A stretch of DNA of 55,706 nt from an uncultured Sulfurovum sp. (GTDB taxonomy: Bacteria > Campylobacterota > Campylobacteria > Campylobacterales > Sulfurovaceae), in NCBI GenBank assembly GCA_902727935.1, contig CACVAX010000044.1, positions 1,619-57,324 of the forward strand. The letters run 5' to 3'. The notes under the pieces were generated by a model that was not told the DNA's origin, made no database searches, and saw nothing but the letters and a program-made list of their open reading frames with translations. Positions 45,023-55,706 of this stretch are shown in pieces. Within the stretch, counting starts at the first letter, position 1. Every line of letters begins with the position of its first letter. The translations under genes and the position numbers were made by a program.

Positions 45023-46237
45023 ATGAAGTATCAGAACTATATGAATCTATTTTTGTTGTCAACAACACTTTTAGTAAGTGAGGAGATTGCGACAGAGCGT
45101 CAACATGCATTAAGCAACTTAGCACCCAAAGGAAACTTTGTACTAAGAGTAGAGGGTAAAACGCGAAGCACACAGTTTTCTTATAATAACAAAGGGGATA
45201 AGGTAGGTTTAGGAGAGGGGTTAAATGCTGTTCATTTAAATCAAAATCTTTTTCCCTCATTGGCTATTTTTGGAGAAGGAGCGAGTTTAGGAACAACTTC
45301 TTCTTCCATGGAGTTTGATTCCCAACGCTTTGAAATCTCTTTTGGTTATGGAATAACAGATGATTTAACCGTGGGTATTATTTTTCCTTTTGGAACGGTC
45401 AAGAACAAGGTTGACTTTTCAGTCAGTGGGGCGAACCTTGGAAAGAATCCAAACTATAATCCTCTTGTTGCCCCTTCTGCTACTAATTTACCATATTTAC
45501 CCACCACTACAGGAGTAACACCTTTCAGTACAGCTGATGTACAAGCACTGTTAGCATCGCCTACTTATGGCTATAAACCCATTGCTTCGACACGAACAAC
45601 GGGCTTGGCTGACCCAACCATTGGGCTTTTGTATCAAGCGTTAAAAAATAAAGATTCATCCTTGGTATTGGCAGGAGGGGTGGACATTGGAATTGCTAAA
45701 GAGGATGACCCTGATAACTTGGTGGATGTCCCCATTAATAATGGTAATTCAGCATTACGTGTTCGAGCCGAGTATTATAGGAACTTAGCCAACAACTGGG
45801 ATGTTTTTGCTAAAGCAGAGTATGGAATAGAGTTTGAAGACCGTGTCACCAAAAGAGTACCTAAACAAGGGGAAATTTTAGCTCCTCAAAGCAGTACAGA
45901 AAAAGTTAAAAGAGATTTAGGGGATTACCGTAGCTATGAGTTAAGTTTAGGTAAGTCTGTCAATAACTGGCGATATGCAGGAAGACTGTATCGACTTGAA
46001 AAAGATGCTGATGATTATACGTCTGATATTGGAACTGATGTAACGGTATTGGAGGCGAATACAGCTGGATATGCTAATCAGTGGGAAGCAGAAGTCTCTT
46101 GGTCAGGTGTGGATGCATGGGCAAAAGGAAATTTAGCCATGCCATTGATTGTGTCTTTGGCGTATAAAGATACATTTTCTGGAAAGAATGGGCTTGATTG
46201 GTCTGAACTCTATTTTCGTGTTACAAGCTTCTTTTAA
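45023..46237 (+). CDS. Outer-membrane beta-barrel protein (transporter/porin-like)
   Basis: 404 residues from ATG 45023, chosen over an in-frame ATG at 45002 because AAAGGAGAATATT precedes it and a signal peptide starts there (MKYQNYMNLFLLSTTLLVS). The mature part has alternating strands, aromatic girdles and a terminal Phe (LYFRVTSFF), as in barrels recognised by BAM. The motif FEISFGYGITDDLTVGIIFPFG resembles the MetA-pathway-of-phenol-type outer-membrane family. It may be a channel or hydrophobic-compound transporter. A tandem motif shared with the lipoprotein promoter lies 31 nt upstream of the start. Its stop overlaps the histidine-kinase stop by 4 nt. Confidence 0.78.
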   Translation: MKYQNYMNLFLLSTTLLVSEEIATERQHALSNLAPKGNFVLRVEGKTRSTQFSYNNKGDKVGLGEGLNAVHLNQNLFPSLAIFGEGASLGTTSSSMEFDSQRFEISFGYGITDDLTVGIIFPFGTVKNKVDFSVSGANLGKNPNYNPLVAPSATNLPYLPTTTGVTPFSTADVQALLASPTYGYKPIASTRTTGLADPTIGLLYQALKNKDSSLVLAGGVDIGIAKEDDPDNLVDVPINNGNSALRVRAEYYRNLANNWDVFAKAEYGIEFEDRVTKRVPKQGEILAPQSSTEKVKRDLGDYRSYELSLGKSVNNWRYAGRLYRLEKDADDYTSDIGTDVTVLEANTAGYANQWEAEVSWSGVDAWAKGNLAMPLIVSLAYKDTFSGKNGLDWSELYFRVTSFF

Positions 46238-48066
46238 AGTTTAAATATCAACTCATAACGTGTGCCATTTTCAAAAGTGAATTCACTTTTAGAAGCATGT
46301 AGCTTTTTGGCAAACTGTTTAATGAGTTTGAGTCCAAAACTGTTTCGTTGATGCTTTAAGTCAAATCCTTCACCATTGTCTTGTACGATTAATAAGATTT
46401 CATTGTCAATTTTTTGACATGTGAGTTGAAGGATACACCTTTCATCTTTTTTAAAATGTTTAATAGAATTGGTTAAAAGTTCATTGACAATGATTCCTAA
46501 AGCCAAGGCATGGTCAGCAGAGAGAGTAAAATCATCTATCTTATCATGAATATTAACCAGCTTTTGAGTATAACTTTTTTGTATCTCTACATTTATTTGG
46601 TGAAGATACTTTTGTGTTTTTATTTCAGCATAGTCATCCATACCTAAGAGGTATTGATGAATGAGTGCCATAGATTTAATACGGTTGATGAGTTCGAGTA
46701 GTGAATCATCGTCATCATTACTTTTTTTGTTCTCATTTTCAATCCATAAAAGACTGATGACCATTTGAAAGTTGTTTTTTACTCGGTGATAGACTTCCTT
46801 TAGGAGTACTTCTTTTTCTTTGAGGAGTTGGTTTACTTTGTTGGTACGTTCTTTTACTTTTTTCTCTAGGATTTCTTCATTGTTTTTTTGGATTTCAAGT
46901 AAATCATCTTGAAGTTTTATTTTTTCATTTTGGGTGGTATAGAAACGGTTCACTAAGATAAAAGAGAAAAACATAATTTCAATGTAGGATAAAACAGAGA
47001 AAGAGTAGTGCGTAAATAGTGTATGAGGTAACGTTCCATTAGCCATGAGAGGTAAAATGGTTAAACCACTGATGTAAAATATAGCCCCCACAAGATATAG
47101 TCTTGCTTCTTTATGTCCTTTATAGGCAACATAAAGAGAAGCAAAGATGGTAATTGGGGCAAAAGTTACGGTAGAAACTCCAAAAATTTTCATCCAGTTA
47201 GAATAGTCGTATAACATGTAGGGAAGAGACAAGAGGTAAATCCATATCATAAAAATTAGTAATTTATGTAGACGTGGTAGATAATAATCAAGTTTTAGTA
47301 GTTTATCGGTAAATAATATTAGAAAAACTAAGAAAATAGGCATGGAAAGAATAAGTTCTCTGTACCATAATGATAGACCAAAATAGTGTATTAACCCTGA
47401 ATAAATGGTGACATAGAGAGAGAAAAACAGAATATACATGGTATAGTAGAAATAGATAATATCATGAAATTTGATAAATAAAAAAAGATTAAAAAGGATA
47501 AGAAGAAACATACTTCCTAAGAAAAAGAAGTAAAAGAGATAATTACTTAAGATATTTTTGTGATTAAAAGCACTTTGTGTGCTAAGATGAAAGCGTCCAA
47601 AGGAGAACCCAGCAGTCTTTCTATCGGGTGCAAATTGTAGGTAGATTGTTTTTGTTTGATGGGGTTTAACGGTAAAAGGAAAAATAGGACTAAGGTTTTC
47701 TTTACTCTTATTTTTCTCATAATATCGTAACCCTACATTTTGTTGATGCCACTGATTATTTTTTTGACTATAAAAGTGAATGCGTTGGAAGAATGGTTCT
47801 ATGAGTTGAAAAATAAATTGCTCATTTTGAGTTTGATTGTTAATGGTGAGTTTAAACCAAGTGTTACCAGAGATAAATCCAAAAGTAAACATGTTAGAGG
47901 TTGTCTCTTTAAATTTTACTTTTTGAATGCTCTCTATTGTATGGCTTTTATTGTGGTCATAATGGTAGGCGAGTTCAAAGTCATTGACCTCTTGCATTTC
48001 ACTATAGATGTCGATATTGGCGTGTAAATAGCCATAGAAGCATAAAAGAATAAAGAGCTTTTTCAT
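46234..48066 (-). CDS. 7TMR-DISM sensor histidine kinase (HWE/HisKA_2 type)
   Basis: 610 residues. Signal peptide (LFILLCFYGYLHA), a periplasmic 7TMR-DISMED2 beta domain (about 20-170), seven membrane helices (about 180-375, beginning LFYFFFLGSMFLLILFNLFL), then a coiled coil and a kinase core. The phospho-His box is KEVYHRVKNNFQMVISLLWIE (His in residue about 427), of the HisKA_2 type, and the ATP-binding domain has LALGIIVNELLTNSIKH and DNGEGFDLKHQR. It likely senses an extracellular ligand, perhaps a carbohydrate as in other DISM receptors. The response regulator gene lies 3 bp upstream on the same strand, so they form one pair. Confidence 0.9.
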   Translation of the reverse strand: MKKLFILLCFYGYLHANIDIYSEMQEVNDFELAYHYDHNKSHTIESIQKVKFKETTSNMFTFGFISGNTWFKLTINNQTQNEQFIFQLIEPFFQRIHFYSQKNNQWHQQNVGLRYYEKNKSKENLSPIFPFTVKPHQTKTIYLQFAPDRKTAGFSFGRFHLSTQSAFNHKNILSNYLFYFFFLGSMFLLILFNLFLFIKFHDIIYFYYTMYILFFSLYVTIYSGLIHYFGLSLWYRELILSMPIFLVFLILFTDKLLKLDYYLPRLHKLLIFMIWIYLLSLPYMLYDYSNWMKIFGVSTVTFAPITIFASLYVAYKGHKEARLYLVGAIFYISGLTILPLMANGTLPHTLFTHYSFSVLSYIEIMFFSFILVNRFYTTQNEKIKLQDDLLEIQKNNEEILEKKVKERTNKVNQLLKEKEVLLKEVYHRVKNNFQMVISLLWIENENKKSNDDDDSLLELINRIKSMALIHQYLLGMDDYAEIKTQKYLHQINVEIQKSYTQKLVNIHDKIDDFTLSADHALALGIIVNELLTNSIKHFKKDERCILQLTCQKIDNEILLIVQDNGEGFDLKHQRNSFGLKLIKQFAKKLHASKSEFTFENGTRYELIFKL

Positions 48067-48069
48067 TTA

Positions 48070-48765
48070 TTATAACTCGTCTAATACATAGCCTAAACCT
48101 GAAACGGTACGAATATTTAAATCGGGAACTTTTTTACGAAGTCGTAGAATGGTATCTCGAATGGTAGAGGTAGCCACCTGTTTATCTATCCATATTTGAT
48201 TGTTTAAATAGGTATTGGTAACTACTTGATTGAGATTTAAAAATAGATAATAAAAAATATCGGATTCTTTTTTACTGAGTTTAATAAGATGCTCATCTTT
48301 CATCAGTGTTTGTGTTTTTTTATAATATTTATAATTGTTATTTAGCTGAGTAAAGAGAGGATTAGTCTTTTTTTTTATTGTTCTATTTTGAGTATAGTTT
48401 TGTTTAATGGCGATGGCAAGTGCAACTTCTATGTCATGATAGTCAAAAGGTTTAATAAGGTATCCAAAAAGGTTGGTGTCGGTTGCTTCGGCAATGGTTT
48501 GACTGTCTGAAAAGGCTGTGGTATAGATGATGGGTATTTTCTTATGCTGATTTATCTTTTTTGCACAACTAATTCCATCCATACTACCATCTAGGTTTAT
48601 ATCCATAAATACGATGTCTATAGTCTCTTTAGTAATTATATCTACTGCCTCTTTACCCGTTTCTAGGGTATCGATAACATTATGACCTAACTTGACAATA
48701 GCTTTTTTAAGAAATTGAGCGTTAATAAACTCATCTTCAACGATTAATATATTATATTTATGCAT
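48070..48765 (-). CDS. Response regulator with receiver and winged-helix DNA-binding domain
   Basis: 231 residues. Receiver domain 1-120: acidic E10 D11, phospho-acceptor Asp55 in FMDINLDG, Thr in IIYTTAFSD and Lys in LIKPFDYH. A C-terminal winged helix (about 140-231) contains LIKLSKKESDIFYYL, DTILRLRKKVPDLNIRTV and ends SGLGYVLDEL, the OmpR/PhoB class. Such regulators bind tandem 10-11-bp direct repeats as dimers. It is cotranscribed with the kinase. A tandem 11-bp repeat lies in the divergent intergenic region at 48939-48960 and before the porin gene, so both are candidate targets. Confidence 0.93.
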   Translation of the reverse strand: MHKYNILIVEDEFINAQFLKKAIVKLGHNVIDTLETGKEAVDIITKETIDIVFMDINLDGSMDGISCAKKINQHKKIPIIYTTAFSDSQTIAEATDTNLFGYLIKPFDYHDIEVALAIAIKQNYTQNRTIKKKTNPLFTQLNNNYKYYKKTQTLMKDEHLIKLSKKESDIFYYLFLNLNQVVTNTYLNNQIWIDKQVATSTIRDTILRLRKKVPDLNIRTVSGLGYVLDEL

Positions 48766-49068
48766 GATTTACCTATGTTAAATTATATTACTTATATAAA
48801 ATATTATATATAAAATTTTTTAAAGTTTGGGTTGTATTTCTGTTATTTTAATTTTTTTAAATAATAAATATTAAAAAAAAATACTTAAAAGTATTGTTAG
48901 ATAAAAATATAAATACTAATTATAGATAAAAATAAAAATCCGACAAATATCCGATAAAAATTGATTATTATAAGAATGAGACTTTATTTAATATTTTAAT
49001 TATAAATATTTAGTTTTAAATTGTTTTAAACTGTTTTTTGTGTGAATTACTTAAAAAAAGGAGGATAA
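48766..49068. other. 303-bp AT-rich divergent intergenic region between response regulator and lipoprotein genes
   Basis: No reading frame of note; almost pure A/T with A-runs (for example nine A near 48871-48879). It must hold the divergent promoters of the two-component pair and the lipoprotein-sapC-giant unit. The tandem motif at 48939-48960 and a -10 candidate (TATAAG, 48969-48974) lie in the centre; a strong ribosome site AAAGGAGG precedes the lipoprotein. Confidence 0.7.
48939..48960 (+). promoter_or_regulatory. Tandem 11-bp motif before the lipoprotein-sapC-giant unit (candidate response-regulator site)
   Basis: TCCGACAAATA followed directly by TCCGATAAAAA (9 of 11 identical). It sits 9 bp upstream of a possible -10 (TATAAG), at the place where an activator would bind, and it shares the sequence with 44971-44992. 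Confidence 0.45.
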
Positions 49069-49941
49069 ATGAAGCGAATACTAATCTTGATTAGTTTAGG
49101 ACTTTTTATAGTCGCTTGTAGCTATGAGGAACAAACGACATCGGTAGAGGAAGAAGAGAGTTTTCCAGCAGCTGTACAAATACAAGTAGTAGGTAGTACG
49201 GTTGAAGGATTAACCGTTTGTTTTGATACAAATAATACTTGTAAAAAAACAAACACAAATGGTGTGGTAGAGTATGAATCTTTTGGAGACTATAGATTTA
49301 TGATTCGAGATATCAACATTACAACTTTAACAATAGATAACAATAGAACAATAGTTTCACCCTACAAGCTATTTGATGCCAATGAAACAATGGCAAAAAG
49401 ATTTTTAATGTTGTTACATGCATTTAGTAAGTCCAGTGACCCTACAGATGAGGCTGTATTGTTAACACTTTCTGATTATATTCCTGTAGAGAAGAGTATA
49501 GAGGAGTTGTTAGATAAGACGGCTATTGATAGTAATACGACGCATGAAACATTAAAATATACCATTAATGAGCATAATGTCAGTATTGATTTTGATGAAA
49601 GTAATATCACGAGAGATGATAAGACTTATAATCTCTCGATACCAAGTAAAAAAGCTTATCAAGCATTGGAAACAGTCAAAAATTTTGTAGATTTTGCAGT
49701 TGATAAAAATGTGAGTCTTGATAACTTTGAAGATAAGTTTTTATTTGTAAAACAATCGTTAACAACTTTTTCATTAGGAGATAAATATACTGTTACAACC
49801 ATCGTAAAAGAAGATGAAGTATTCTTAGATTTTTTAGACAATGAATCTAGAACAACCGATAGAACCACTTTAATTGAAACGAATAATTCTAAGGTGCTTA
49901 CAACAAGCTTATTGAGTTTACGCATAAACTCTGACGAATAA
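49069..49941 (+). CDS. Lipoprotein of unknown function, first gene of the surface-protein unit
   Basis: 290 residues. The lipobox is LFIVAC, with Cys17 as the lipidation site, preceded by a hydrophobic signal MKRILILISLG. The mature part starts with an acidic linker and holds VQIQVVGSTVEGLTVCFDTN, which reads like a Cys-containing carbohydrate- or protein-binding beta domain (PKD-like start), then mixed helix/strand. No known family is recognised. It is followed after 20 nt by sapC, suggesting cotranscription; the acidic linker places it outside the inner membrane. The AAAGGAGG ribosome site is the strongest in this region. Confidence 0.75.
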   Translation: MKRILILISLGLFIVACSYEEQTTSVEEEESFPAAVQIQVVGSTVEGLTVCFDTNNTCKKTNTNGVVEYESFGDYRFMIRDINITTLTIDNNRTIVSPYKLFDANETMAKRFLMLLHAFSKSSDPTDEAVLLTLSDYIPVEKSIEELLDKTAIDSNTTHETLKYTINEHNVSIDFDESNITRDDKTYNLSIPSKKAYQALETVKNFVDFAVDKNVSLDNFEDKFLFVKQSLTTFSLGDKYTVTTIVKEDEVFLDFLDNESRTTDRTTLIETNNSKVLTTSLLSLRINSDE

Positions 49942-49961
49942 AATTAATAAAAGGAAATAAA

Positions 49962-50738
49962 ATGTTTAAAAATATCGTACCAATCAATAAAGAAAAACAC
50001 TTAAAAACAAAAGTGAAGGCTGTGAACAATTTTGATTTTGTAAAAGATGTGCATATCGCTTCAGTAATGGTTCATGAGTTTTCAAGAGCTTCTTCAGTTT
50101 ATCCAATAGTATTTTTGGAAGATCAAGCAAAAGACCAGTTTAAACCAGTGGTATTGACAGGACTAGAAGAGGGAGAGAATCTATTTGTAGAAGGTAATAA
50201 GTGGGATGCATCTTATATACCAGCTATTGTAAGAAGATATCCATTTGCATTGGCACAAACAGGAAAAGATAGCCAGTATACCATTTGTATCGATGAAGAG
50301 AGTGAGTTCGTTAATGAAGAAGAAGGGCAATCTCTTTTTAATGAACAAGGTGAAGCTGGAGAAGTGATTGAGAAAGTTAAACAATACTTGACTGAATTAC
50401 AACAGATGGAGCAATTTACCATAGAGTTCTCGGCTTATATGTCTAAAAACAATATGTTTACTCCATTGAATATGAAAGTAAGAGTGGGAAGTGAAGTTAA
50501 AAACATTTCAGGAGCTTATGTCATTAATGAAGAACGATTTAATGCTTTGTCTGATGAAAAGTTTATTGAAATGAGAAGTAAAAAGTATATTCCTGTGATT
50601 TATTCACATTTAAGTTCATTGGCACAAATAGAACGTTTAGTTGCTTTTAAAGATGAAAAAAATAAAGCTCAAAAGAGTGAAAACTTGGATGTAATTGAAA
50701 ATAAAACAGCCTTAGAAGACGAGACAGCTGAAGTATAA
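49962..50738 (+). CDS. sapC: SapC-family protein
   Basis: 258 residues without signal peptide or membrane helix. Marks of the SapC family are the start MFKNIVPINKEKHLKTKVK, then FVKDVHIASVMVHEFSRASS and YPIVFLEDQAKDQFKPVVL, and the middle GNKWDASYIPAIVRRYPFAL. In Campylobacter fetus SapC belongs to the S-layer locus. Similar genes often lie next to giant surface proteins. Here the giant gene starts about 100 nt downstream and the lipoprotein gene ends 20 nt upstream, which supports a role in a giant surface protein's maturation or export; that is inference. The end is acidic and may be disordered. Confidence 0.85.
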   Translation: MFKNIVPINKEKHLKTKVKAVNNFDFVKDVHIASVMVHEFSRASSVYPIVFLEDQAKDQFKPVVLTGLEEGENLFVEGNKWDASYIPAIVRRYPFALAQTGKDSQYTICIDEESEFVNEEEGQSLFNEQGEAGEVIEKVKQYLTELQQMEQFTIEFSAYMSKNNMFTPLNMKVRVGSEVKNISGAYVINEERFNALSDEKFIEMRSKKYIPVIYSHLSSLAQIERLVAFKDEKNKAQKSENLDVIENKTALEDETAEV

Positions 50739-50745
50739 ATAGTTG

Positions 50746-50777
50746 AGTTAGAAAGAGTCTTTTTACTCTTTCTAACT
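50746..50777 (+). terminator. Hairpin 1 in the sapC-giant gap
   Basis: AGTTAGAAAGAG (50746-50757) and CTCTTTCTAACT (50766-50777) make a perfect 12-bp stem around TCTTTTTA. It could be a terminator/attenuator setting the ratio of sapC to giant-protein mRNA, with no separate promoter visible before the giant gene. Confidence 0.6.
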
Positions 50778-50815
50778 TATTTATATAAAGCAACTTAGGT
50801 TGTTTTATATAAATA
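50778..50815 (+). promoter_or_regulatory. Hairpin 2 in the leader of the giant gene
   Basis: The arms starting TATTTATATAAAGCAAC (50778-50794) and ending GTTGTTTTATATAAATA (50799-50815) form about 17 bp (one G-T pair) around TTAG, ending 20 nt before the ribosome site AAGGAG. It may stabilise the giant mRNA's 5' end or act with hairpin 1 as an attenuator. Confidence 0.5.
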
Positions 50816-50845
50816 AAAAATTTATTTATAAATAAGGAGAATATT

Positions 50846-53800
50846 ATGAGTTCATTACATGGATTACGAAGATGTCAACGTGCTTTTGAAAAAGCAATGA
50901 GAAAAAAAGCAAAATCTAAATCAGAGGTTAAGCATGATGAATCTCTATTTAAAATAGATGCCTTAGAAGATAGAATCTTACTCTCTGGAGACCCTGTTTT
51001 AGGTGAATTTATTAGCAATCAAAGTGCAAATCAAACTTATGAAATAGTGAAAAATACGACTGCCAATGATAATATTTCTGATGAAGATGCCATTGTTTAT
51101 GATTATAAAGAAGATGAAAGTATTATTTTAGATGCGAGTGTAATAGGCATAAATGATGGTACAGAATATACAGAAGGTGACCTTCTTCTTACTAGTAATG
51201 AACTAGAGACAAGAGCATTGTCAAGTCTTGAAGAGAGTAATGAACAGTCGAGTTCTCTGGAGACAATACTTGCTGTAGATACAATAGTAGAAGATACAAG
51301 CTTTGAAATTAGCACAGAGATGCTTGAGTTAGAACCTTCTACATTTCAATTGACTGATGGGGAAAGTATAGTTCTTGTTAAAGAAGAAGATGACAATGAA
51401 GTGCTACATAATACAGACCTATTAACACTTTTAACCAATGAATATGAGGCTGATACCTCTATCGATGCAACAGCTCCACCAAAATCATCAGTAATTTTAG
51501 AAGATAGCGAATTTGGCTACTACTCTGAGGTAAATGATGGTTTTATAGTTGATACAAACTATTTAGAAACTCATAATTTACTTGAGAATAGTGATGTATT
51601 AACCATCTCCGAAGACATGATTTTAGGGGGAAGTGGTACGCTTGCTTTAGATGTTGTTAACAATGGTATTCTAGCACCTGGATACTCTCCTGGTGTAGTA
51701 AACTCTTCAACCTTTACTAACGAAAGTAATGCAACGCTTCAAATGGAGATTGCAGGAAGAGGTATTGCAGGTCAAGCTGATGGATTTGATCAAATTAATA
51801 TCTCAGGAGATCTCTCTTTAGCTGGAACGTTAGATGTTAAATTTTTAAATGCTTTTGTGCCTAATGTTGGTGATTCTTGGGAGATTATTACTTTTGGTGG
51901 GGATATTACAGGTAGTTTTGAAAGTTTAGAAGGAATGTATGGTTTTAATAGTGATTACTATTTAGAACTGGTTCAAACTGATCATGCTTTAACTCTGGTT
52001 ACCAAAGAGATTATTACAGGTGATAATCTTAGCATAGAAACAACAAGTGAAACAAATAGTCAAATTGGTAACTTGTTGAATTATGATTATTATGCACAAA
52101 ATATTGCAACACTTCCTTCTTCGGTGAGTATTGATGGAACACTAAGCATTTCAGACTCTTTAGAATTGAGTGGAACATTCAGTTTAAGTCGTGAAGCCAA
52201 TCAAAGTATTACCCTAAGCGATACTTCAACACTCACAACAGAGATGTGGAGTATCTCTACAAGCAATGCCCGTGCCAACTTTGGTGTGGATGCAACTGGA
52301 AATGGATTAGGATTGAGCTTATCAACTGTGACAATGGGCTTGGCTATTTTTGACAGTACCGTAGCTAATGATGATAAATCTTGGATAGTAGCAGAGGGTA
52401 CGGTTGGAAGTGCTTCTTTTTTAAATCTTGATGATTTAGGCTTTAATTCTACTAATCTTGCCTTAGACATGAATTTAGGTTTTGGAGTTGATAATACTCT
52501 CGGGGTTAATTTATCTAGTTCACCATTAGTCCTTAATAGTCAAACATTAGATAGTAGTGCGAGTTATGGTGAATATATAGCCGTATCAGGTACAGCAGAG
52601 ATTACTTTAGAAGATGTAACTTTAAGTGGTACGGTTGCTTTTTCATCTACAGCTACATTATTCCAAATGATTGCAGAAGATGTTTCTTTATCTTTTAGCA
52701 GTGCTGGAACACAAATAGGTCTTTCTAGTGGTTCGTTGGGTTTAATTGCGAATACAAGTGGTATTGTCATAGAAGCAGGTGGAGATTTAGTTTTAACCAG
52801 TAGTGACTTTAACACCCCTACAGCTGAATCGGTTATGTTTAGATATAACAGTACAGGCAGTGCTTATACCGATTATGAACTGATAATTAATGATAAAGTT
52901 TATGGCTTTGGAACACTAGGAGCTACTGATTTAAAAGAGATTCAAGTTTATGGATTCTTTGCCTCTTTAGAAGATATTTTTGAAATCTCTGGAGATTTTG
53001 TTTTTAAATCAGAGAGTAACCAGTTGATTGTGTTGGCTGATAATGCAAGTATTCTTTTGGGGTCTAGTTCTTTTGGTGCTGGTGTGAAAAATGCTTCTTT
53101 TGGTATGGTTATTTTCTCTGATGGTAAAAAGGCACTAGAGGCTAATGGTGAGTTTTTTGGGAATGTTGCTGAAGATGTGTCTATTTCATCTAACAATACA
53201 AACGTTTTATGGAATGAAACAGGAACAAGTCTTTTAAATCAAGAATTTCATGCTTCAGTTTTAAGTCATAAGTTTACTTCTTTAGCTTCTAGTGAAAATA
53301 TTAAAACAGTTGAGGTAAATGATGCTGAACTTAAAATTTCAGATTTTTTTTCTGCAGAAGGAAATTTTGTTTTTTATTTTGAAAAAAATCAAAATACTCA
53401 AGTTAATACAGATGGTATTTCTGAAGCAATTAATACTAATATTTTAAGACTTGAAACAAGTAATCTAAATATATTGTCTGGGTTTTTAACGGATGAATCA
53501 AATATTGGTGGATTAAACATTATTGAAGCAAGTTTTGCTCTGGCTTTTGTTTCTGATAAAATGAATAACCGTTCTTGGATAGTGATTCAATCTAATAAAA
53601 ATTCTAAAGCTGAAAATTTAATTATAAATGATAATAATCTTTTGACGAACTTATTGCAATATTCAGAAGAAAGAGAATCTTTAATTTTGGATGTACATTT
53701 TTTAGAACAAAATGGATTTTTAAGTGCTCAAGAACAACTGGTAGTGTCTGATGGTGTGATTTTGGGTGGAAGTGGTGTATTAGATATTGATTTAATTAAC

Positions 53801-55706
53801 AATAATATATTTTCTCCTGGTTATTCACCTGGGGAAGTTACTTTTAACTCCTTGATTCAAGATAGTGCTTCAGTTTTAAAAATTGACATAGGAGGGACTT
53901 CAGGGGCTGGTCAGGATACAGGGCATGATAAAGTTAATTTAGTAGAAAATGCCTCTCTTGCAGGGACTCTTGAAATTACAATTATTAATGATTATGAAAT
54001 AAAAGTAGGTGATAGCTGGGAGATTATGACTTTTGATTCCAGTGATGGTAAATTTGAGAATGCTATTGGCTTATATGGTTTTGGTGATGGTAGTCTATAT
54101 TTAGATATTGAGCAGTATGATGACAAAATATTATTGGTAGCTAGAGATGTTGGAGATATTCAGTTGAATGTACTTGATGTTGAGGTAAATCAACAGTTAG
54201 GAGAATATTTTAACGAAGACTATTTTGACATCTTGAATAATTCTATAACAGTGAGTGGAGCTGTTAAAATATCTGACACCACATATATTGATGGAGATTT
54301 AACCTTAACATTTGGTGGAATAGAACATATTGATATTTCGACAGGTATTAATGAAAATATGACAAATTTATTTGATGGGTTAGGCTCTAGAATTGAAGAT
54401 GTAAAAGTTTCAAGTTTTGATATTCAAGTAGCCAATGCGAATTTATTTATGGGACTTGGAGGAGACTTTGTTAGTAATTTAAGTGCAGATGCTTATGGAT
54501 TAGTAGCAGAGAATTTAAGTTTGGGTCTTACAGTCATGAGTACGTTGATAGATCCAACAGAGCTTAGCAGTAACGACGATGTGAGTTCATTATTCTCCAC
54601 GCTTGAGCTTTATTCTGTAACAGGTTCTATTGAAAAAGGAAAACTAGTTGGTTTTGGAAATACAGAGTTTGAAGCTATCGATATACAATTGGATATAAAT
54701 AGTAGTGTTACTGCAGGGATATCTCCTCTTGAATCATATTGGAACCCTGTTATTAATTATCAATCAAGTTTTGAAAATGGTTATACAATAGGTAGTCATA
54801 CATTAAATTATGACGGTGAAGAAAGGTTTGGAATCGATGTGGGACAAGCGAAGTTACAGATAGATGAGTTTGTTTATCTGCAAGGAGGCTTTAACTTCAC
54901 CAAAGGACCAGGGTATCAAGTTGATATTGCGACAGGACTTCCAGCCAGTTTAGAAGGAACAGTTGGGACAATTGTTGATCCGTTAATTGATATAGCAGCA
55001 GATGGTTCAGACTACAATACTTTAAAAGGTATTGAAGTAGGTTCAATGACCATAGGTGCATCCAACATACAAGCCTTTGTAGGAATGAATGGTCCATATA
55101 AAGAAGATCAGTCACTAACAACAGAGATTAATTTAGCTACCTGGGAAAAAGATGAGGATGGAAACTATAAAAATCTAATCTATACAGATGGTGTTCTTTC
55201 AGATATTTATGGTGATGGCAATACCTATAATGATTATGTTCTTAATAATGATGCAACGGGGGTAATGGTTGATGATTTAGACTTTGGCATGATTATGGTG
55301 GAGGTAGATACGCCACTTGTCAAAGAGAGATTGGACAGTTTTACAGCGTTTAAAGCCACAGCAGACCGAGGGGCATTAATTGGTTTTGAAGAGGGTGTAG
55401 AGTTAGAAGCAGTAGATATCGAGATAGGGATGAACAGTGCTAAAGAGCTCTATCCAGGTTTTGGTTCAGCAATTGATTGGGCAGGTAGTTTTGAAGAGAC
55501 TGGTGGTTTAGAGATTGCTGCTGGAGGAGAAAGTACGGTACTGTTAGACTATGATGATGAGATTCTAAAAGTGGATATCGGACAAGCGAAGTTACAGATA
55601 GATGAGTTTGTTTATCTGCAAGGAGGCTTTAACTTCACCAAAGGACCAGGGTATCAAGTTGATATTGCGACAGGACTTCCAGCCAGTTTAGAAGGAACAG
55701 TTGGGA
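50846..55706 (+). CDS. Giant repetitive surface protein with LEPR-XLL-like N-terminus (3' end outside the window)
   Basis: An uninterrupted frame from ATG 50846 (AATAAGGAGAATATT upstream) runs through the end of the window, at least 1620 codons, with no stop. The N-terminus is basic and has no classical signal; residues 40-51 read LEDRILLSGDPV, close to the LEPR-XLL motif of giant surface proteins. Then come acidic linker text (to about 240), two beta-rich blocks with GGSGTLALDVVNNGILAPGY-type text and VGDSWEI (about 252-390 and 967-1102), long Ser/Thr/Gly beta repeats, and repeats of 246 residues near the end. It is Cys-poor, typical of secreted adhesins or S-layer-like proteins. Upstream SapC and lipoprotein support export. 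Pattern recognition only; no homologue has been checked. Confidence 0.85.
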   Translation, partial: MSSLHGLRRCQRAFEKAMRKKAKSKSEVKHDESLFKIDALEDRILLSGDPVLGEFISNQSANQTYEIVKNTTANDNISDEDAIVYDYKEDESIILDASVIGINDGTEYTEGDLLLTSNELETRALSSLEESNEQSSSLETILAVDTIVEDTSFEISTEMLELEPSTFQLTDGESIVLVKEEDDNEVLHNTDLLTLLTNEYEADTSIDATAPPKSSVILEDSEFGYYSEVNDGFIVDTNYLETHNLLENSDVLTISEDMILGGSGTLALDVVNNGILAPGYSPGVVNSSTFTNESNATLQMEIAGRGIAGQADGFDQINISGDLSLAGTLDVKFLNAFVPNVGDSWEIITFGGDITGSFESLEGMYGFNSDYYLELVQTDHALTLVTKEIITGDNLSIETTSETNSQIGNLLNYDYYAQNIATLPSSVSIDGTLSISDSLELSGTFSLSREANQSITLSDTSTLTTEMWSISTSNARANFGVDATGNGLGLSLSTVTMGLAIFDSTVANDDKSWIVAEGTVGSASFLNLDDLGFNSTNLALDMNLGFGVDNTLGVNLSSSPLVLNSQTLDSSASYGEYIAVSGTAEITLEDVTLSGTVAFSSTATLFQMIAEDVSLSFSSAGTQIGLSSGSLGLIANTSGIVIEAGGDLVLTSSDFNTPTAESVMFRYNSTGSAYTDYELIINDKVYGFGTLGATDLKEIQVYGFFASLEDIFEISGDFVFKSESNQLIVLADNASILLGSSSFGAGVKNASFGMVIFSDGKKALEANGEFFGNVAEDVSISSNNTNVLWNETGTSLLNQEFHASVLSHKFTSLASSENIKTVEVNDAELKISDFFSAEGNFVFYFEKNQNTQVNTDGISEAINTNILRLETSNLNILSGFLTDESNIGGLNIIEASFALAFVSDKMNNRSWIVIQSNKNSKAENLIINDNNLLTNLLQYSEERESLILDVHFLEQNGFLSAQEQLVVSDGVILGGSGVLDIDLINNNIFSPGYSPGEVTFNSLIQDSASVLKIDIGGTSGAGQDTGHDKVNLVENASLAGTLEITIINDYEIKVGDSWEIMTFDSSDGKFENAIGLYGFGDGSLYLDIEQYDDKILLVARDVGDIQLNVLDVEVNQQLGEYFNEDYFDILNNSITVSGAVKISDTTYIDGDLTLTFGGIEHIDISTGINENMTNLFDGLGSRIEDVKVSSFDIQVANANLFMGLGGDFVSNLSADAYGLVAENLSLGLTVMSTLIDPTELSSNDDVSSLFSTLELYSVTGSIEKGKLVGFGNTEFEAIDIQLDINSSVTAGISPLESYWNPVINYQSSFENGYTIGSHTLNYDGEERFGIDVGQAKLQIDEFVYLQGGFNFTKGPGYQVDIATGLPASLEGTVGTIVDPLIDIAADGSDYNTLKGIEVGSMTIGASNIQAFVGMNGPYKEDQSLTTEINLATWEKDEDGNYKNLIYTDGVLSDIYGDGNTYNDYVLNNDATGVMVDDLDFGMIMVEVDTPLVKERLDSFTAFKATADRGALIGFEEGVELEAVDIEIGMNSAKELYPGFGSAIDWAGSFEETGGLEIAAGGESTVLLDYDDEILKVDIGQAKLQIDEFVYLQGGFNFTKGPGYQVDIATGLPASLEGTVG
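51600..52015 (+). repeat. SPG-type beta block, copy A, in the giant gene
   Basis: Encodes ILGGSGTLALDVVNNG, ILAPGYSPG, VGDSWEIITFGG and GMYGF. It is a diverged protein-level copy of the block at 53743-54150, about 2.14 kb downstream. Such autotransporter-like units usually form beta-helix rungs. Confidence 0.7.
53743..54150 (+). repeat. SPG-type beta block, copy B, in the giant gene
   Basis: Encodes ILGGSGVLDIDLINNN, IFSPGYSPG, VGDSWEIMTFDS and GLYGF. Same order as copy A, but diverged in DNA. Confidence 0.7.
54842..54968 (+). repeat. Exact long direct repeat, copy 1 (period 738 bp)
   Basis: GGACAAGCGAAGTTACAGAT and the following 107 bp are identical to 55580-55706 (127 bp in all, and the second copy is cut by the window end). 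The offset is 738 bp, that is 246 codons in frame. The text is GQAKLQIDEFVYLQGGF, TKGPGYQVDIATGLPASL and EGTVG. Confidence 0.9.
55580..55706 (+). repeat. Exact long direct repeat, copy 2, truncated by the window end
   Basis: Identical at all 127 visible bases to copy 1 at 54842-54968. DNA identity rather than only protein similarity points to recent duplication or gene conversion, and more copies are expected downstream. Confidence 0.9.

Follow-up and report, generated by a model that had tools for sequence, protein, structure and literature searches.

A giant LEPR-XLL protein gene followed by a candidate ABC-free, TolC-dependent export module in an uncultured Sulfurovum

Giant adhesins and surface-layer (S-layer) proteins are exported by type I secretion, as described for LapA and for the sapDEF system of Campylobacter fetus. 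In accessory Sec systems, a second SecA (SecA2) is thought to serve special surface proteins. Here we analyse a locus of an uncultured Sulfurovum sp. that has features of both. The window, the whole stretch of 55,706 nucleotides (nt) that was analysed, is positions 1619-57324 of contig C44 (CACVAX010000044.1; a C44 position is the window position plus 1618). The genome (G000; GCA_902727935.1) comprises 2.4 Mb in 60 contigs, is 84.6% complete and has an estimated contamination of 5.8%. The window ends inside a giant gene that lies downstream of sapC and whose product carries an LEPR-XLL motif near its N-terminus. Judged from its genes, the locus probably combines a giant protein, secreted or surface-bound, with an exporter dedicated to it that lacks an ATP-binding cassette (ABC) transporter, depends on TolC and has a SecA-like motor, with the LEPR N-terminus marking the cargo.

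The closest described system is a gene module reported by Kamneva, Poudel and Ward (2015; PMC4452313). According to the main text of that paper, second SecA_DEAD proteins without a wing-scaffold stand beside GAF/HlyD, M50/HlyD and HlyD proteins and, at some loci, OEP proteins. The module contained no ABC transporter, and SecA was suggested as the ATPase and the M50 protein as the membrane pore. The Pfam match of the M50 protein was weak in that set too, and the broader biological role of the module was called completely unknown. The terms 'LEPR' and 'giant' gave no hit in a search of the main text. Among open-licence papers we found none that links the SecA/M50/HlyD module to LEPR giants. The LEPR-XLL family (NF012209), whose cut-off the motif found here exceeds close to the start of a giant protein, is named only as a domain, and in the papers retrieved under that name we saw no link to exporter genes. 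The machine is already described; what is new here is the assignment of cargo and tag, the SapC lineage and a trend towards long cargo.

The giant gene and the module behind it

The window ends at the start of a 100-N scaffold gap (C44:57325-57424). Beyond the gap, the same frame is open for another 5,663 codons without a stop, up to the end of C44 (frame to 74414; contig end 74415). Extending the contig past window position 55706 therefore revealed neither an early stop nor a frameshift in the frame read to the end of C44, and the giant frame of at least 1,620 codons that had been proposed from the window stands. Repeated sequence surrounds the gap: the 127 bases immediately in front of it recur exactly at window positions 54842-54968, and the 127 bases that come next after it recur at 55120-55246. 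A further tandem repeat closes C44. When the genome was searched with these terminal repeats, one other place was found, at the end of contig C20 (30613-31554, minus strand, 73% identity). The last bases of C44 and the first bases of C20 (reversed) share an exact 56-base overlap, and the last 587 codons of the giant frame lie on C20 (31554-29791, minus strand). The joint between C44 and C20 falls in a repeat; it is likely, not proven. The giant then totals 1,620 + 5,663 + 587 = 7,870 codons, of which the overlap double-counts about 18, giving ~7,850 observed codons, not counting repeat copies missing from the assembly. Assembly pieces stop at the long repeats of the giant gene (C44:74415 and C20:31555), and such genes are therefore likely under-counted in short-read genomes.

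The observed giant has a single cysteine, at position 10. Its N-terminus combines a basic stretch, in which no segment is hydrophobic, with the LEPR-XLL motif, which scored 23.1 bits against the LEPR-8K model NF012209 (curated cut-off 17); the LEPR-XLL-like N-terminus recognised by the sequence-only reading is thus confirmed. No Pfam domain scored over its cut-off in the pieces of the giant that were scanned.

On C20, the stop of the giant gene is followed by genes for a TolC-like protein (OEP, PF02321, E 5e-35), an HlyD-like protein (RND_mfp, 124 bits, cut-off 94.9), a GAF + HlyD protein, an M50-like protein with an adaptor half, and a SecA-like protein. The intergenic gaps from the giant to the SecA-like gene are 22, 12, 9, 4 and 1 nt, and none of these six genes encodes an ABC transporter. 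The SecA-like protein (655 amino acids (aa)) matches SecA_DEAD (E 3.4e-79) and SecA_PP_bind, has a P-loop and keeps the motifs GEGKT, DEAD and TNMAGRGTDI; no wing-scaffold family was among its matches at E 0.01. It is ~220 residues shorter than the main SecA of the genome, a frame of 873 codons on contig C8. Two SecA_DEAD genes, one of 866-878 and a second of 652-672 codons, were present in each of G000, its Sulfurovum relative G022, G353 and G375, and a single one in G402 and G366. The Pfam match of the M50-like protein is weak (4.6e-5, under the cut-off); the protein retains HExxH, a pattern found in all 57 selected full-length M50 frames. In a sequence search of the structure database, the second half of the M50 protein matched MacA, EmrA and other adaptors, and the first half weakly matched MJ0392 (E 0.029).

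The module follows the C-terminus of the giant in the same order in G022, the closest relative that has this locus, where the giant frame has at least 8,062 aa. G353 and G375 also have this order, with one or two lipoprotein-like genes between the giant and TolC. In G375 (Sulfurimonas sp. N3_29), the SecA-like gene is followed at a short distance by a tryptophan halogenase gene (PF04820, E 1.8e-92; L117:10805-12160) of the same orientation.

C20 thus carries the GAF/HlyD, M50-like/HlyD, HlyD and OEP set of the 2015 module, next to a shortened second SecA_DEAD protein without wing-scaffold and with no ABC transporter. It differs from the module as presented in that paper's main text by the LEPR giant as linked cargo, the SapC partner and the Campylobacterota host. 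The TolC and HlyD parts, together with a giant, repetitive, cysteine-poor cargo, are shared with type I systems that secrete giant adhesins and S-layer proteins, and SapC stands before ABC-type systems in other genomes of the same genus and order. However, the type I combination of ABC transporter, HlyD and TolC is incomplete at this locus, where a SecA-like motor and an M50 membrane protein are found instead of an ABC transporter. No PrtD-type ABC transporter scored over the cut-off in G000 or G022, HlyB-type ABC transporters not having been searched separately; the best PrtD-type candidate in G000, a 572-codon frame, was rejected at 223 bits against a cut-off of 510. The second SecA is reminiscent of accessory Sec, but its partners here are TolC, HlyD and M50 proteins, and SecA2 models remained below their cut-offs (e.g. 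456 vs 930 bits). Secretion of a protein cargo by the module is suggested here, as it was in the 2015 paper.

Spread of the module and its association with LEPR-XLL proteins

To describe the module more widely, we used the best 80 of 451 confirmed places as named loci, which include Verrucomicrobia, Planctomycetota, Deltaproteobacteria, Nitrospirota, Cloacimonadota and Pseudomonadota. Strains that carry the module include Pelagicoccus sp. SDUM812002 (L128) and Oceanospirillum sanctuarii (L126). The M50 frame was recognised by its own profile in 67 of the 80 loci and not in 13. By a distance rule, a SecA-like gene was directly downstream of M50 in 52 of the 57 loci with room, and the gene directly upstream of M50 was GAF/HlyD in 55 of 61. 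TolC was found in 38 and HlyD in 37 of the 50 stretches with room.

LEPR-XLL and the module co-occur. In a sample of 397 Campylobacterota genomes, with M50/HlyD matches taken at E 1e-10 or better, M50/HlyD was found in 11 and LEPR over the cut-off in nine, all nine being among the 11 (Fisher p = 9e-17). Counted by genus, the same 6 of 68 have LEPR and M50 (p = 9e-9). The module genomes without LEPR over the cut-off are G315 and G340. Matches below the cut-off occurred in three more genomes, G340, which has the module, G203 and G270; the frames of the last two (22 and 37 codons) look like noise. Among 274 gammaproteobacterial genomes, 26 had LEPR over the cut-off, 43 had M50 and 20 had both, so that M50 was present in 20/26 LEPR genomes vs 23/248 others (Fisher p = 1e-13 with all 43, in two of which, G516 and G610, the match is limited to the HlyD half). 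LEPR was also over the cut-off in 34 of 50 module-bearing genomes, these being the first 50 of the 80 best loci, with G022 and G375 again among them; the longest LEPR open frame in these genomes has at least 18,012 codons. Of the 861 frames at the 80 named loci, 18 show the LEPR pattern. Each of them is on a stretch no more than 10 kb from the M50 match and extends beyond the sequence fetched. Sixteen of these are among the 50 frames of at least 1,000 aa and one is among the 489 under 500 aa. The gammaproteobacterial genome G727 (contigs C44, C56 and C84) has five LEPR matches, the frames ranging from 5,806 to 14,112 codons.

A side variant was seen in G253, G315, G340, G353 (second locus), G366, G380, G413 and G417, where an M50 protein (25-29% identity) and an HlyD partner lie near a giant gene, and the stretches read of these eight loci contain no SecA-like gene. 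The giant N-terminus was LEPR-like (LEQRILFDGA type) in all seven in which the start was read, that is, all but G315, and the LEPR frames have 1,472 to 3,063 codons. LEPR frames in genomes that bear the SecA-like gene have 16,201 and 3,455 (G353) and at least 7,328 (G000) codons; those of G375, with at least 9,395 and with 877 codons, are on contigs other than that of the module. With the giant frame of G022, these lengths suggest a link between the SecA-like motor and very long cargo, in what is a small sample. Two systems are present in the one genome G353 (C1:202000-221999, L084): one has the SecA-like gene and the 16,201-codon giant, and the second has a 1,469-aa LEPR protein with no SecA nearby.

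We then compared the ends of the giants. Seventy distinct LEPR N-termini were gathered by a search pattern in which E and R are fixed and five further positions restricted. Position -5 to the motif is F in 41 and position -2 is E in 54 of the 70; the motif is followed by D in 36 and by P in 38. Of the 45 N-termini long enough to test, none contains a hydrophobic segment, taken as a 19-residue mean over 1.6, ahead of the motif.

C-terminal ends were taken from the longest open frame. Giants that end just before the module close with EYWIEDIAI in G000, G022 and G375 and with ELWTEDLVL in both giants of G353. Similar endings are EYWIENIAI (L096), EYWIEEMMF (L098), EYWIEDVVF (L100), EYWIENMMF (L101), EYWIEDMMF (L102), DDWQEELAL (L112), DLWVEELAL (L167) and DVWSEEVYL (G440:C22). 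This W-x-E-[DEN]-hydrophobic ending occurs in Campylobacterota, Cloacimonadota, deltaproteobacterial groups, Thiomicrospira and Hydrogenophaga, with the N-terminus out of reach for most. A second sample was selected by LEPR: 40 LEPR frames were picked by length from the module-bearing and the gammaproteobacterial genomes, seven reaching a contig end were dropped, and nine of the 33 fetched had no stop in the stretch. Only two of the 24 with a visible stop have a W-x-E-type ending, one of which (G444) is the L100 giant again, and the idea of a general C-terminal signal for LEPR giants was set aside on this ground. In G727, three giants (L303, L305 and L306) have a common C-terminal ending that differs from the W-x-E type. 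As far as these sequences indicate, the element common to the giants is the N-terminus.

SapC and the genes upstream of the giant

The SapC protein matches PF07277 over the whole profile (1-220 of 220; E 6.6e-70, 235.6 bits, cut-off 28.9). A sequence search for a solved structure found none, the best E of 0.21 being at chance level. An initial contig scan with SapC as the sole query gave no relative; SapC was found in 20 of 60 relatives, the own genome counted, and the SapC-domain profile gave six hits in the stretches scanned around module loci. SapC stands beside the SecA/M50/HlyD module at the window locus and in G022, G353, L126, L167, G540, G594 and L099, and together with both module and LEPR at the same locus in the window, G353, G540 and G594. 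In G353, sapC is directly upstream of the 16,201-codon LEPR frame. The L126 genome has LEPR on another contig and the L099 genome has no LEPR match; in G022 and L167 the giant N-terminus is outside the sequence read. In a SapC tree, which outside Campylobacterota sampled only SapCs of module loci, seven of eight module-locus SapCs fell into one group with 100/99 support. This group spans Campylobacterota, Cloacimonadota, gamma- and betaproteobacteria and is apart from the fused SapCs of the order to which Sulfurovum belongs. The SapC of G594 is elsewhere in the tree, on a long branch. The adjacency in G353, the module loci and the tree group bear out a linkage of SapC with the giant protein, for which the sequence-only reading had proposed a helper role.

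SapC is fused behind another domain at nine loci of relatives (L035:3360-4775; similar frames in L028, L030, L033, L034 and L037-L040). In L035, the one fusion scanned with Pfam, the front part is Y1_Tnp (IS200 transposase-like, 36 bits, cut-off 23). Eight of the nine fusions precede frames resembling a type I ABC transporter, HlyD and TolC, two being cut by contig ends, and at L034 such frames follow an unfused SapC copy. A PrtD-type ABC transporter scored over the cut-off in all three fused-SapC genomes tested (G016, G019 and G028). SapC also lies near a 930-aa subtilase with cadherin and P-domain in L042 (1237-15998), L043 is likewise SapC-linked, and a neighbouring frame has at least 2,986 aa; this is possibly a second kind of SapC-linked giant.

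The features of the window are listed in Table 1. Open reading frame (ORF) calls and domain matches agree with the order of kinase, regulator, lipoprotein, sapC and giant frame that had been read from the sequence, with gaps of 3 nt between kinase and regulator and 20 nt between lipoprotein and sapC. As a five-part surface-protein system, this arrangement held in part: sapC and the giant are linked, but the five genes are only the front half of the locus, the export module being downstream, outside the window.

Table 1. Features at the end of the window (window coordinates)
Feature	Position	Strand	Basis
Sensor kinase, 7TMR-DISM + DISMED2 + HisKA_2 + HATPase_c	46234..48066	-	ORF call, Pfam
OmpR-type response regulator, Response_reg + Trans_reg_C	48070..48765	-	ORF call, Pfam
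Divergent intergenic region, 303 nt	48766..49068	.	
Lipoprotein-like protein, 290 aa	49069..49941	+	ORF call
sapC, lineage found beside the SecA/M50/HlyD module	49962..50738	+	Pfam, tree
15-pair hairpin (4 G-C pairs) with T-rich tail, terminator-/attenuator-like	50744..50779	+	Between sapC and giant gene
Giant gene, first 1,620 codons, open at window end	50846..55706	+	ORF call
LEPR-XLL motif, giant residues 35-52	50948..51001	+	NF012209 match
Repeat region (best shift 738 nt) ending the assembled piece	54842..55706	+	

On a contig of G022 separate from that of the module, kinase (65%), regulator (62%), lipoprotein (55%) and sapC (77% over 132 aa) are found in the window order; the giant N-terminus is unseen there because the contig ends inside sapC. 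In both the window and G022, the kinase/regulator pair is divergent from lipoprotein and sapC, and the pair and the lipoprotein were seen in these two alone. In G353, where 8.6 kb upstream of sapC were read, no relative of kinase or regulator was found, and kinase control as part of a general system was rejected; that the kinase controls the giant in Sulfurovum is a guess. The sequence-only reading had the lipoprotein help to produce or attach the giant. A Pfam scan gave no family above cut-off for it, and its profile found no relative in the scanned stretches around module loci.

Promoter-like sites between 48700 and 50900 were no more frequent than in shuffled sequences (10 vs 12.1). A promoter at 48939-48960 was not retained: one minus-strand promoter-like match is nearby (48946-48919), and the region is at chance level. 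Terminator-like sites numbered two in the region vs 0.4 in shuffles. With this hairpin behind it, sapC may or may not share a transcript with the giant gene; in the corresponding gap of G353, another inverted repeat can be made out.

A possible export pathway and its alternatives

From the observed gene content, gene order, co-occurrence and motif conservation we infer the direction of export, a reader of the tag, a role for the protease and a surface location. Two proteins of the inner membrane, M50/HlyD and GAF/HlyD, would recognise the LEPR N-terminus in the cytosol, the choice of GAF and M50 as readers being a guess. The SecA-like ATPase would replace the ABC transporter of type I secretion and push the unfolded chain, which HlyD and TolC would carry across the envelope. 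The M50 protease may trim a leader, SapC may help in production, folding or attachment of the giant, and, in Sulfurovum alone, expression of the locus may be turned on by the two-component pair.

Several observations weigh against this pathway. The cargo assignment rests on association, and no LEPR match was found in 16 of the 50 module genomes, many of which are fragmented metagenome-assembled genomes. LEPR over the cut-off is also missing from 23 of the 43 M50-positive gammaproteobacterial genomes, and M50 from 6 of the 26 LEPR genomes (G495, G563, G607, G634, G700 and G724), including G700 with a frame of 7,373 codons. One of 14 control genomes, Deinobacterium chartae, matches LEPR over the cut-off in the LEPR search of the Campylobacterota sample; no control did so in the other searches, at stricter E. 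The Fisher values overstate independence because the sampled genomes are related by descent, and the p-values are guides only. In several systems of Campylobacterota the module lacks a neighbouring SecA, and the SecA-like protein therefore cannot be needed in all. The giant itself was put together from two contigs that meet in a tandem repeat, the genome has an estimated contamination of 5.8%, and the exact length of the giant is uncertain.

The 16 module genomes without a LEPR match would also fit a module that exports something else, such as a peptide or a surface-modifying molecule, with LEPR giants as neighbours that use another path. The best NCBIfam match of the M50 protein, a daptide protease model (161 bits, under the cut-off of 300), points the same way. 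Yet LEPR and module co-occur in both Campylobacterota and Gammaproteobacteria and are adjacent, and the PrtD-type search in G000 offered no such other path over the cut-off, which makes this explanation rather improbable. A LapA-like logic is somewhat less improbable but still unlikely. There, the export signal would be at the extreme C-terminus, and the LEPR N-terminus, serving for retention or cleavage, would keep the giant in the envelope until its release by the M50 protease. An acidic residue with hydrophobics at the C-terminus resembles the signals of type I secreted proteases, and the W-x-E-type endings, common to giants that stop just before the module, share this likeness. Against this, the ending is rare in the LEPR-selected frames, and LEPR is present in all lineages sampled whereas the ending is present in some. 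The sequence-only reading had favoured an S-layer-like system without an exporter of its own, in which the kinase has control and lipoprotein and SapC serve in assembly. G022 keeps the order of kinase, regulator, lipoprotein and sapC as this would predict, but the first three were not detected at G353, where different lipoprotein-like genes follow the giants. In addition, the giant has no signal peptide-like segment and is directly followed by the export module, and we consider this view very improbable.

For export of the LEPR giant by the module, a broader claim can be formulated, for and against which we see the balance as even: LEPR-XLL would be the export tag of a widespread Gram-negative pathway in which a SecA-like motor and an M50-type membrane subunit replace the ABC transporter and act with HlyD and TolC on cargo of up to ~18,000 residues, with SapC as a cargo helper. 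Together, these results propose a cargo and a signal for a secretion-like module that had no known role when it was described in 2015, and an export route by which very long bacterial proteins may leave the cell.

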